This document shows, piece after piece, positions 23,154 through 36,440 of a stretch of 64,000 nucleotides of DNA. The DNA is from Crassaminicella profunda (GTDB lineage: Bacteria > Bacillota > Clostridia > Peptostreptococcales > Thermotaleaceae). The notes below the pieces were generated by a model. It saw only the letters and a program-made list of their open reading frames with translations, had not been told where the DNA came from and made no database searches. The translations under genes and the position numbers were made by a program. Location: NCBI RefSeq assembly GCF_019884785.1, contig NZ_CP082326.1, positions 372,001-436,000 of the forward strand. The letters are read 5' to 3'. Each line of letters opens with the position of its first letter. The first letter of the stretch is position 1.

Positions 23154-23312
23154 TAAAAAAACCTCTTTCATTGAGAAAGAGGCATATAGAACAATGTCTT
23201 CTTTCTCTCATCTGCCGATACAAATGTATCGCAGGAATTGGCACCGCTGCATAAATATATGCCGGTTGCCGGGTTTCATAGGGCCAGTCCCTCCACCTCT
23301 CTGGATAAGAGA
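23154..23312 (-). promoter_or_regulatory. SAM-I riboswitch (S-box) of metNIQ
   Basis: Read on the minus strand, the aptamer (about 23312-23204) contains the P1 arms CTCTTATC and GATGAGAG, the GAGGTGGAGGGACTGGCCC block, ATGAAACCCGGCAACC, and GGTGCCAATTCC, all diagnostic of SAM-I. It is followed by a terminator CCTCTTTC ... GAAAGAGG with seven U residues (23182-23154). High S-adenosylmethionine should stop transcription before metN. Confidence 0.95.
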
Positions 23313-32551: not shown

Positions 32552-34210
32552 TTACTTTAATACAGCTCCTGTACTTGCAGAAGTTACTAATTTTGCATAT
32601 CTTGCTAAATATCCTTTTGTAACTTTAGGTTCAGGTTTTACAAAGTTTGCTTTACGTTTCTCAATCTCTTCATCACTTAATTTTACTTCTAACTTTTTAT
32701 TAGGAATATCAATACTAATGATATCTCCATTTTCAACAAGACCAACAAGTCCTCCCTCCATAGCCTCAGGAGAAACATGACCAATAGCAGCACCACGAGT
32801 AGCCCCAGAAAATCTACCATCCGTAAGAAGTGCTACGTCTTTATCAAGTCCCATACCAGCAATGGCAGAGGTTGGTGATAGCATCTCTCTCATACCAGGA
32901 CCACCCTTTGGACCTTCGTATCGGATAACTACTACATCACCCTTTATAATCTTTCCATCAAAAATGGCATTTACTGCTTCTTCTTCTGAGTTGTATACTT
33001 TTGCAGGGCCAACGTGTACTAACATTTCATCAGCTACAGCTGATTCTTTTACAACGGCCCCATCTACTGCTAAGTTTCCTCTTAGGATCGCAAGGCCGCC
33101 TTTATTTCTATAAGGGCTTTCAATAGGATGGATGATATCTGTATCCAATACCTTTCGGGTTTTTAAATTTTCACCAACATTATTTCCTGTAACAGTCATA
33201 GCTTCTAGGTTGATTAAATCTTTTTTTGTGAGTTCCTTCATAAGAGCAGGGATTCCTCCAGCACGGTGTAAGTCTTCCATATGATGCTTACCGCTAGGGC
33301 TAAGCTTTGTAAGATATGGAGTTACTTGACTGATTTCATCAAATAATTCAAGGGGTAATTCTATACCTGCTTCATGAGCGATTGCTGGTAGATGAAGTAC
33401 TGTGTTAGAAGAACCAGCCATAGCCATGTCTACAGTGATTGCGTTTTTAAAGGCATCAATTGTCAGAACATCTAATGGTTTTATATTATTTTTAATACAT
33501 TCCATAACCTTCATTCCTGCATATTTTGCAAGTTGAATTCTCTCACCTGAGTGAGCTGCAGCAGTACCGTTGTAAGGAAGTCCCATTCCTAGTACTTCTG
33601 TTAAGCAGTTCATACTATTTGCAGTGAAAAGTCCTGAGCAAGAACCACATCCTGGGCAGGATTTTCTTGCTAATTCTTCTAATTCTTCTGCAGTCATTTT
33701 ATTGTCCTTAAAAGATCCAACTCCTTCGATCACACTACTAAAATCTAATGCTTTACCATTATGCTCTCCTGCTCTCATAGGACCACCACTAACTACAACG
33801 GCTGGAATATTTAATCTTGCAGCAGCCATAAGCATTCCTGGAACGATTTTGTCGCAGTTTGGGATTAAAACTAATCCATCAAAAGCATGACCCATTGCCA
33901 TAGCTTCAATAGAATCTGCAATAAGCTCACGACTTGCTAATGGATATTTCATCCCATCATGTCCCATGGCAATCCCATCACAAATACCTATTGCAGGGAA
34001 TTCTACAGGAGTACCTCCTGCCATGGCAACACCCATTTTAGCAGCTTGTGCAATTCTATCTAAGTGCATATGACCTGCAATAATTTCATTTTGAGCATTG
34101 ACAATACCAATAAGGGGTCTGTCTATTTCTTCTTTTGTATATCCCATTCCATAAAATAAAGATCTTACAGGAGCTCCTTTTGCACCTTTTTTTATTTGAT
34201 CACTTTTCAT
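32552..34210 (-). CDS. ilvD: Dihydroxy-acid dehydratase
   Basis: A 552-residue IlvD, which converts dihydroxy-acids to the 2-oxo acids leading to isoleucine and valine. It is Fe-S dependent: cluster cysteines lie in [17 protein letters not shown] and the [11 protein letters not shown] region. The C-terminal [14 protein letters not shown] active-site block is intact. Full length. It is the only biosynthetic gene behind the T-box here; other ilv genes are not in the window. Confidence 0.97.
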
Positions 34211-34240: not shown

Positions 34241-34540
34241 AAAAATCCCTCGTCTCTAAGATATAACATTATATCTTAGGGACGAGAGATTTTTCCCGTG
34301 TTACCACCCTAATTTACAATTCATTCACATGAATTATCTCTTCAGGTCAAATATTAACCCTAGCCATATAACGGTGGCACTTCTAACTGATGTAGAATCC
34401 CGGCCTTATCTACTCTAATGGTTTCGATTTGGCAGCTACGGAGTGATTATTATATACTGCTTTAACGCTGATTTTCAGCAAATATCAGCTCTCTGTAGTT
34501 AAAGGAATAGTATTTTTCTCTCCGTCATCACTTTTTTTGA
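34241..34540 (-). promoter_or_regulatory. T-box riboswitch of ilvD, isoleucine type
   Basis: On the minus strand the leader begins ATGACGGAGAG (stem I base, near 34530) and continues with CAGAGAGCTGATATTTGCTG (distal stem I). Opposite it, TAATAATCACTCCGTAGCTGCC places AUC as the likely specifier (plus-strand GAT at 34445-34447). The T-box AGGGTGGTAACACGGG is at 34310-34295. A long terminator stem with a U-run follows (34290-34243). Uncharged isoleucine tRNA should allow read-through into ilvD and the BASS gene. Confidence 0.93.
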
Positions 34541-34718: not shown

Positions 34719-34746
34719 TTGAAAACCTTGATAAGTAGAGTAATAT
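34719..34746 (+). promoter_or_regulatory. Probable mgtE promoter
   Basis: TTGAAA (34719-34724) and TAATAT (34741-34746), 16-bp spacer, about 30 bases before the M-box. Confidence 0.55.
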
Positions 34747-34767
34747 AGCATATAATAATAAAGACAA

Positions 34768-34962
34768 GTTAACATTAATGTTAGGTGAGGCTCCTATTGA
34801 GATATACGCTGATGCCCGGAAATGTCGAGAGACGCCAACGGGTTAACAGGTATAATCGCGAAGGTTATATTTAATGCAGCTGACCATATGGTCAAAGCTC
34901 AATAGTGCTAAAGCTCAACATAGGAAAAGATATTTTTCTCTACTGTTGAGTAGAGTTTTTTT
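34768..34962 (+). promoter_or_regulatory. M-box (ykoK) magnesium riboswitch
   Basis: Hallmark segments are present in order: GTTAGGTGAGGCTCCTA, ATACGCTGATGCCCGG, GACGCCAACGGGTTAACAGG, TTTAATGCAGCTGACC and AGTGCTAAAGCTCAACATAG. A terminator CTCTACT-GTTG-AGTAGAG with seven T residues follows (34938-34962). The CTCAACA of the aptamer end can pair with TGTTGAG inside the terminator, giving the antiterminator. High magnesium should end transcription here. Confidence 0.95.
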
Positions 34963-34989
34963 GTTTTCATAAAATAACGAAAGGTTGGT

Positions 34990-35052
34990 GATGGTTGTGG
35001 ATGCTAGTCCCTTACCGAAGCGGAAAACTAGTGAAATGAATATTTTGAATAG
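34990..35052 (+). CDS. MgtL-like leader peptide, 20 residues
   Basis: The frame encodes MVVDASPLPKRKTSEMNYFE, preceded by AAAGG six bases before the ATG. It lies after the M-box terminator and before mgtE. Residues 4-12 (DASPLPKRK) align position by position with Salmonella MgtL (DPTPLPRRR, also residues 4-12), the leader whose proline and charged codons sense magnesium or translation stress ahead of mgtA. The stop codon overlaps the base of a hairpin (35051-35084). Its start region 34987-34999 can pair with 35055-35067, an exclusive alternative. Homology versus convergence is open. Confidence 0.6.
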
Positions 35053-35084
35053 AGCCATAACCATCATTTGGTGTTTATGGCTCT
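35051..35084 (+). promoter_or_regulatory. Leader hairpin with an alternative partner, upstream of mgtE
   Basis: AGAGCCATAA (35051-35060) pairs with TTATGGCTCT (35075-35084), ten perfect pairs, ending four bases before the mgtE ribosome site. The segment CCATAACCATCAT (35055-35067) is also complementary, with two G-U pairs, to GTGATGGTTGTGG (34987-34999), which covers the leader-peptide start codon. The two structures exclude each other. No U-run follows. Confidence 0.65.
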
Positions 35085-35102
35085 TCTAAAGGAGGGCTTT
35101 TG

Positions 35103-36440
35103 ATGAAAGATTATGTAATTGAACTAATGAACACCAAAAGATATGCTGATGCAAGACGGGAAATGTTAGAAATGAATCCTGTGGATATTGCTGAGCTATT
35201 AGAAGAAATGGATACAAATAATGCACTGATTCTTTTTAGAATGATGCCAAAGGATATTGCAGTAGATGTATTTTCAAATTTATCCAATGAAAATCAAATG
35301 TATATTATTAATGCAATTACAGATAAAGAAATAAGATACATCATGGACGAGCTGTTCTTTGATGATATGATTGATATGCTAGAGGAAATGCCTGCAATTA
35401 TTGTAAAGAAAATATTAAAAAATACAAAAGAAGATGAAAGAAAGCTCATTAATCAGTTCTTAAATTATCCTGCAGATTCTGCAGGAAGCTTGATGACTAT
35501 AGAGTATGTTGGACTTAAAAAAGAAATGACTGTGAAGCGGGCTATGGCATATATTAAAAAAATTGGAATTGATAAAGAAACTATTTATACTTGCTATGTG
35601 ATGAACGTGAACCGTAAATTAGAAGGAATCGTGTCCTTAAGAAAAATTGTTGTCAGTGATGATGATAAGACGATTGAAGAGATCATGGATACAGGGGTTA
35701 TTTATGTAAATACCTTTGATGATCAAGAAGAAATTGCCCATGTCTTTAAAAAATATGATTTTATTGCATTACCTGTTGTAGATAAGGAAGAAAGACTTCT
35801 TGGAATTATTACTATAGATGATATTGTGGATGTTATAGAAGAAGAAAATACAGAAGACTTTCATAAAATGGCAGCTATGGAGCCTTCTGAAGAAGAATAT
35901 CTTGAAACAAGTGTTTTTACATTGGCAAGAAAAAGAATTGTTTGGTTGATGGCCCTAATGATTTCAGCTATCCTTACAGGAAGCATTATTAGTAAATTTG
36001 AAGATGTACTTCAATCTGTTGTAGCCCTTGCAGCTTTTATGCCTATGCTTATGGGAACAGGTGGAAATGCAGGGGCCCAGTCAGCTACCCTTGTGATTAG
36101 GGGAATGGCGCTAGATGAGATTGATCTTAGTGATATTTTGCAAGTAGTTTGGAAAGAATTAAGAGTGAGCTGTGTTGTAGGTATTATTTTATCCTTTGTA
36201 AATTTTATCCGAATTTATTATTTTCAGCATGTAGATATTAGAATTGCTGCTACTGTATGTCTTACACTCATTGTTGTAGTGATATTAGCAAAGCTTGTTG
36301 GGGGAACATTACCTATTATTGCAAAAGCTTTAAAGCTGGATCCTGCTATTATGGCCAGTCCAATGATTTCAACAATTGTAGATGCTGTATCATTACTTAT
36401 TTATTTTACAATGGCAACGAAGTTTTTAGGAATTGCATAA
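35103..36440 (+). CDS. mgtE: MgtE-family magnesium transporter
   Basis: A 445-residue MgtE. Order of domains: N-terminal superhelical MgtE_N (about 1-130), a CBS pair (about 135-260; ACVMNVNRKLEGIVSLRKI-like and LPVVDKEERLLGIITIDDIVDVI), a linker helix, then five membrane helices with the pore signature MPMLMGTGGNAGAQSATLVIRGMA. Magnesium bound between the cytosolic domains closes the channel. The ATG is chosen with AAAGGAGG seven bases upstream; a TTG three bases earlier is in frame. It is controlled by the M-box and the second leader. Confidence 0.95.
   Translation: MKDYVIELMNTKRYADARREMLEMNPVDIAELLEEMDTNNALILFRMMPKDIAVDVFSNLSNENQMYIINAITDKEIRYIMDELFFDDMIDMLEEMPAIIVKKILKNTKEDERKLINQFLNYPADSAGSLMTIEYVGLKKEMTVKRAMAYIKKIGIDKETIYTCYVMNVNRKLEGIVSLRKIVVSDDDKTIEEIMDTGVIYVNTFDDQEEIAHVFKKYDFIALPVVDKEERLLGIITIDDIVDVIEEENTEDFHKMAAMEPSEEEYLETSVFTLARKRIVWLMALMISAILTGSIISKFEDVLQSVVALAAFMPMLMGTGGNAGAQSATLVIRGMALDEIDLSDILQVVWKELRVSCVVGIILSFVNFIRIYYFQHVDIRIAATVCLTLIVVVILAKLVGGTLPIIAKALKLDPAIMASPMISTIVDAVSLLIYFTMATKFLGIA

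Follow-up and report, generated by a model that had tools for sequence, protein, structure and literature searches.

A conserved proline-rich leader peptide and a four-segment RNA upstream of Mg2+ transporter genes in Bacillota: a probable Mg2+-responsive translational attenuator

The window, that is, the whole 64,000-nucleotide stretch of DNA analysed here, carries an mgtE gene preceded on the same strand by a likely promoter, an M-box riboswitch, a putative intrinsic terminator, and a short leader frame. The start of this frame belongs to the first of four RNA segments that can pair with one another, the last of which contains the mgtE Shine-Dalgarno (SD) sequence. The features are as follows, in window positions.

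34728-34756, + strand: likely promoter TTGATA-17-TATAAT, assigned by eye from the sequence
34770-34933, + strand: M-box (Mg2+) riboswitch aptamer RF00380, found with cmscan (126.6 bits, gathering threshold 44)
34938-34962, + strand: putative intrinsic terminator of the M-box, CTCTACT/AGTAGAG and T7, assigned by eye from the sequence
34979-34990, + strand: ribosome site of the leader, GAAAGG and GGTG, from the sequence and alignment to relatives
34988-35000, + strand: segment 1 (leader start region), partner 35055-35067, from fold and covariation
34997-35089, + strand: leader peptide ORF MDASPLPKRKTSEMNILNRAITIIWCLWLF, GTG start, TAA stop at 35087-35089
35051-35067, + strand: segment 2, partner of segment 1 or, through 35051-35060, of segment 3, from fold and covariation
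35075-35086, + strand: segment 3 (anti-SD), 35075-35084 pairing with segment 2 and 35079-35086 with segment 4
35091-35098, + strand: segment 4, the mgtE SD GGAGGG and its flank, from the predicted probability of being unpaired
35103-36440, + strand: mgtE, ATG at 35103, with the Pfam domains MgtE_N, CBS, and MgtE

The M-box, which the original prediction had placed before mgtE, exceeds the gathering threshold of its family and is the sole RF00380 match at E≤0.001 in the 4.59-Mb genome. Judging from the sequence, a competing pairing of 34914-34920 with 34944-34950 would be its antiterminator. A T-box leader (34275-34537, − strand) upstream of an ilvD-like gene (32552-34210, named by eye) forms a unit that stands back to back with that of mgtE, and a SAM riboswitch is found at 23205-23311 (− strand).

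The leader frame is longer than the 20 codons originally described: it runs to the TAA stop for 30 codons from GTG 34997, or for 32 from an alternative in-frame start, ATG 34991. It does encode the claimed D-A-S-P-L-P-K-R-K, but the residue-by-residue correspondence with Salmonella MgtL that had been drawn from it requires ATG 34991, which is probably not the start in use. The start that relatives share, an [AGT]TG-GA codon, corresponds to GTG 34997. At the position equivalent to 34991, an ATG is missing from three relatives (L028, L031, and L032), and one of them (L032) has an in-frame stop immediately upstream of the common start. Because the homologous start lies six bases later, we set the match in residue numbers aside.

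To describe the conservation of the leader, we took the upstream regions of MgtE orthologues from relatives. In 69 of 99 such regions, an [ATG]TG-GA start is accompanied by an SD and by a proline within codons 3-10, and no leader candidate was found in the other 30 (e.g., L027, L030, L033, L035, and L036). A second scan dropped the proline and ORF filters and kept the start anchor together with a score of at least 22 for the pairing of segments 1 and 2. Applied to 208 pooled regions, it returned 125 loci, 107 of them nonredundant, a set that retains a few evidently spurious loci. In raw counts that ignore the kinship of the loci, the leader frame is open for at least 22 codons in 103 of the 107, against 19 and 6 for the other two frames. 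Proline occupies residue 5 in 93 loci and residue 7 in 65, giving the conserved motif M-[DE]-x-x-P-x-P, in which the acidic residue 2 is no evidence because the start anchor imposes it. The leader of the window begins MDASPLP, with one acidic residue within residues 2-9, as also in 50 of the 107 loci. When relatives were examined for an unconserved or interrupted frame, the outcome that the original prediction had named as speaking against it, the frame, its proline-rich start, and the two mutually exclusive helices described below proved to be kept in Clostridia and beyond.

The codons themselves are informative. CCT, CCC, and CCG are all used for the leader prolines of the 107 loci, and since they differ at the third base, it is the peptide that has been kept and not the DNA alone. 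CCA is rare: in raw counts, again regardless of kinship, it makes up 4 of 175 proline codons at residues 2-9, compared with 261 of 893 (29%) in 86 mgtE genes, and 4 of 67 proline codons in the leaders of a more remote set. There may thus be selection on the speed of proline decoding in the leader. A search of the window's genome with a tRNA-Pro pattern gave no match, so the avoidance of CCA could not be linked to tRNA supply.

The fold of the region involves three helices. The helix of 13 base pairs between segments 1 and 2 had been predicted and is present, one base away from where it had been placed (34988-35000, not 34987-34999, with 35055-35067). The second pairing of the original prediction, 35051-35060 with 35075-35084, is borne out by sequence and fold. 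To these we add a third helix, 35079-35086 with 35091-35098, which buries the mgtE SD. When the downstream DNA was shuffled 200 times, the score of the window for the pairing of segments 1 and 2 (helix 1:2) was never reached. When the best-pairing start is taken at loci with several, this pairing stands above the shuffles at 1% in 42 of the 69 candidate loci, and 27 fail this ungapped test (L025, L034, L060-L062, L069, L071, L073, and L075, among others); as the loci are related, these and all other shuffle, Wilcoxon, and Fisher values overstate significance.

An alignment of 62 diverse loci was then scored for covariation. The 13 pairs of helix 1:2 are formed in 90.8% of cells. Double changes occupy 105 cells (39.7 in shuffled alignments), and the covariation score is 0.549 (0.324 shuffled, at most 0.258 in slid controls); pairs that show any double change number 7, which is not above the 6.8 of the shuffles. 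Helix 2:3, which uses in part the same bases, has 51 double-change cells (21.3 shuffled) and a score of 0.396 (0.264 shuffled), and its 7 pairs with any double change are likewise not above the 5.9 of the shuffles. Both helices are supported within one family set of 20 loci (A1); in another of 18 loci (A2), helix 1:2 is supported and helix 2:3 is weaker, with 3 double-change pairs against 3.3 shuffled. RNAalifold, unprompted, returned helix 1:2 together with helix 3:4 in both sets. Over the 62 loci, both of the mutually exclusive helices 1:2 and 2:3 covary. One locus (L140) has tandem hairpin-like repeats between leader segments 2 and 3, upstream of mgtE.

Access to the transporter SD is predicted to depend on the leader start. 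In the window, the probability that the bases of the mgtE SD (35091-35096) are unpaired is predicted at 0.00-0.04 in the free RNA and at 0.15-0.97 with the leader start masked in imitation of a bound ribosome. The cost of opening the SD was computed for 49 loci, namely the 69 candidates less 4 excluded beforehand and 16 in which the script found no mgtE start. Its mean, 4.73 kcal/mol for the free RNA, falls to 2.06 when the leader start is removed and to 2.85 when the 5' part is shuffled. Access improves by more than 1 kcal/mol in 34 loci and worsens by more than 1 in one, and in 22 of the 49 no more than 2 of 40 shuffles attain the free-RNA cost. Four close relatives (L010, L011, L013, and L024) show no clear gain in this thermodynamic model. 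Two further sets, which played no part in drawing the four-segment model, give similar figures in the same order: 6.03, 3.00, and 3.45 kcal/mol for 41 remote loci (29 gain, 4 lose), and 5.22, 2.75, and 3.53 for 26 loci of the class (17 gain, 2 lose), with 6 of these 67 shifting the wrong way by more than 1 kcal/mol. They are no unbiased sample, because they were found with covariance-type searches that score helix 1:2 (and, in the model called R1 below, also helix 3:4). A start and an SD were obtained for 41 of 43 remote and 26 of 29 class loci, after leaving out near-duplicates and L260, L273, L275, L299, L304, L306, L311, L314, L315, L322, L323, and L328. The models thus predict that occupation of the leader start by a ribosome exposes the transporter SD on average, though not in every relative. 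In one family (f11, e.g., L076, L082, L085, and L100), the leader starts some 165-290 nt upstream of mgtE, and helix 3:4 and the unmasking of the SD are not evident; this layout may serve an output other than SD masking.

The distribution of the element was studied with three models, R1 built from 20 loci, R2 from 62 loci, and R3 from 79 matches, in samples of 391 genomes of the class and 398 of the phylum. The models end at the start codon of the transporter gene, extending in some rows a few codons into it, and the identity of that gene is therefore not built into them. R1 has 52 matches in 50 genomes of the class sample; among the 51 examined, 45 precede mgtE (one, G028, assigned by coordinates) and 6 do not (E 3e-4 to 9e-3). 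Of these six, one precedes a corA-like gene (L240; weak, 81 aa, E 5e-6), two fall inside coding genes (L236 and L237), and three were checked for MgtE alone (L239, L241, and L242). R1 also matches 50 of 76 loci from titled records at E≤0.01, and the carriers by R1 score include Tissierella praeacuta, Acetivibrio mesophilus, Lutispora thermophila, Caloranaerobacter azorensis, and Clostridium tetanomorphum. In the phylum sample, R2 has 20 matches in 20 genomes, all of them before genes of Mg2+-transport type: 14 MgtE, 5 proteins with PRC, MgtE_N, and CBS domains followed by an Nramp-like ORF, and 1 CorA. A locus from a record titled Halanaerobiales (L198) also carries the leader (R2, 23.6 bits).

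With R3, the phylum sample has 42 matches in 41 genomes. Mg2+ transporter genes follow 41 of them (21 MgtE, 12 CorA, 7 PRC/MgtE_N/CBS, and 1 decayed mgtE, L273), and one match (L299) has no transporter downstream. The class sample has 66 R3 matches in 62 of the 391 genomes, and the 65 examined all lie upstream of MgtE (57) or CorA (8), two of these by coordinates. Pfam was run on part of the genes (PRC/MgtE_N/CBS and Nramp of L247, CorA of L257, and pieces of L318, L274, L309, L277, and L315); the remaining identities come from BLAST, where ten CorA-like genes were recognised at E 5e-5 to 1e-9 only. The link of the model matches to Mg2+ transporters is nearly exclusive.

In the genome of the window, R2 finds no second site below E 0.45, and the next-best R1 site (E 0.012) lies inside a 337-aa ORF. 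We also considered the leader region as a repeat element and rejected this; its best other DNA match in the genome is a 22-base stretch, by eye inside a protein-coding gene. Among 48 remote leaders, 13 start with MDPDP or MDADP, and others with MDCDPD or MDDPDAD. At two loci before corA-like genes, ATA-GAC-CCG (L306) and ATC-GAT-CCG (L275) stand where the leader usually starts, and from the sequence ATA and ATC are possibly weak non-standard start codons. The decaying mgtE of L273 consists of pieces in two frames between the leader and a glycerate-kinase-like ORF. Some genomes have neighbouring mgtE genes, each with its own leader (L017/L049, L019/L050, and L122/L223); in the first two of these, the first mgtE copy is also behind an M-box.

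The original prediction had placed a riboswitch and a translating-ribosome sensor in series. The order M-box, terminator, leader, mgtE does recur in relatives; that the leader would act as a ribosome sensor belongs to the mechanism proposed below. An M-box lies upstream of 26 leader loci. Counted over successive batches of 20 scanned loci, some of them without a leader, RF00380 was found upstream in 12, 3, 11, 0, and 0. Within the genus and family of the window, the leader is present without an M-box in L012 and L014-L017. In the first of these, from the same genus, the promoter, terminator hairpin, and leader are retained upstream of mgtE and the M-box aptamer is missing. Since the leader often occurs without an M-box, it is the wider element in these samples. 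No Rfam family matches the leader in the loci scanned.

In attenuators of the ermC type, helices 1:2 and 3:4 make the OFF state and helix 2:3 the ON state, and the SD becomes free when a ribosome occupies the leader. We think it likely that the leader and its four-segment RNA form a Mg2+-responsive translational attenuator built in this way. At high Mg2+, the M-box would halt transcription before the leader; when transcription proceeds past it, ribosomes would translate the leader. Fast reading, at high Mg2+, would let helix 1:2 re-form and segment 3 cover the mgtE SD in segment 4 (OFF), with ribosomes that finish the leader stopping right at that SD. At low Mg2+, ribosomes would pause at, or leave, the acidic and proline codons near the leader start while occupying segment 1, so that segments 2 and 3 would pair, the SD would be free, and Mg2+ import would be switched on (ON). 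We infer Mg2+ as the signal, the pausing or drop-off, and the direction of the switch. The one thing common to the three unrelated downstream transporter families is Mg2+, and we propose the low-Mg2+ pause or drop-off because of this, because of the leaders that begin MDPDP or MDADP, and because, according to the available portions of PMC11282234 (likewise PMC11552253), ribosomes dissociate at EPDP of E. coli MgtL at low Mg2+ and mgtA is raised. As the window peptide has a single acidic residue, the effect may depend more on the prolines in its group. A broader reading, towards which the balance tips slightly, is that the ribosome is the Mg2+ sensor in M-[DE]-x-x-P leaders across the Bacillota, with three unrelated transporter families under one four-segment attenuator and the M-box as a local addition in some lineages.

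Other explanations account for part of these observations. A ribosome finishing the leader might simply block the mgtE SD or re-initiate there, with abortion of translation at low Mg2+ lifting the block and the helices being secondary. The leader frame is indeed open through segments 2 and 3; in 13 of the 49 loci its stop codon starts 1 nt ahead of the SD, and in a further 14 it starts 2-9 nt ahead. Yet both exclusive helices covary, and in family f11 and several other loci the leader stop is far from the SD or past it, and we regard this explanation as unlikely. Somewhat less probable still is a leader that responds to slow decoding of proline or to another general stress on elongation (proline, EF-P), the Mg2+ transporters being raised as a consequence and Mg2+ itself going unsensed. 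In its favour, prolines 5 and 7 are the most conserved part of the peptide, and the avoidance of CCA suggests that decoding speed matters; the linkage to unrelated families of Mg2+ transporters and the acidic residues that adjoin proline in many remote members argue against it.

Strong covarying helices near the SD could also be read as an RNA switch in which the balance of helices 1:2 and 2:3 answers Mg2+ directly and the frame is incidental. These helices are simple, with no evident aptamer core, and the frame and proline codons are conserved while their wobble bases vary. We set this reading aside on the conservation of frame and prolines, and consider it very improbable. A ribosome-sensing attenuator remains our preferred interpretation. 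If it is true, MgtE, CorA, and Nramp-linked genes are preceded by covarying devices of the same logic in Clostridia and elsewhere in the Bacillota, and ribosome-based sensing of Mg2+ by nascent peptides, known from enterobacteria, would be a general bacterial solution, placed in some cases in series with a riboswitch on one transcript. The dozens of natural variants would then bear on which residues and codons make a ribosome sensitive to Mg2+. In the open-access literature, to which the search was confined (preprints and subscription journals lay outside), we found no leader peptide described ahead of mgtE or corA in Bacillota.

Several described systems share part of this arrangement, and we compare them as far as the accessible parts of the sources go. 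The mgtE motif of Thioalkalivibrio is also an RNA element before mgtE, a riboswitch candidate reported exclusively in that genus; it is set apart by its description, in which, in the part available, no leader ORF is described (PMC11109978). The leaders MifM and CliM resemble ours in that their translation unmasks the SD of the downstream yidC2; their arrest is near the C-terminus and answers to membrane insertion, whereas here the conserved residues are N-terminal (PMC13183943, accessible part). In Mycobacterium tuberculosis, a conserved small ORF likewise follows an M-box; that M-box acts on the translation of the uORF, together with Rho-dependent termination, and the peptide is described as mycobacteria-specific (PMC12810186). 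In the window, by contrast, an intrinsic terminator precedes the leader, and the leader also occurs without an M-box.

The closest likenesses are with MgtL and with ermC. Like MgtL and CorL, which precede enterobacterial mgtA and corA, the leader is short, has N-terminal acidic residues and prolines, and stands before a Mg2+ transporter gene; two exclusive RNA folds are also common to both, and the transporter of MgtL and CorL is raised by poor elongation at low Mg2+ (PMC11282234 and PMC11552253, in the portions available). The likeness appears to be one of motif and logic. The MDPDP or MDADP of 13 of the 48 remote leaders resembles the destabilising EPDP of MgtL, and the window has MDASPLP, with one acidic residue. 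MgtL precedes mgtA, a P-type ATPase gene; the gene in the window is MgtE, and the others are MgtE, CorA, and PRC/MgtE_N/CBS proteins of Bacillota. The predicted target here is the transporter SD rather than Rho termination, and full translation of MgtL represses via Rho, whereas occupancy of our leader is predicted to activate. The leader also sometimes stands behind an M-box, unlike MgtL. With attenuators of the ermC type it shares a leader ORF that overlaps segment 1, exclusive helices 1:2 and 2:3 that both covary, and an SD predicted to be freed by an occupied leader start, in the window and on average, though not in the four close relatives named above nor evidently in family f11. It would differ from ermC in its signal, Mg2+ acting through the nascent peptide and not a drug, and it differs in its segment 1, which is the leader's own SD and start region. 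The device would thus join an MgtL-like signal to an ermC-like RNA, in new genes and a new phylum.
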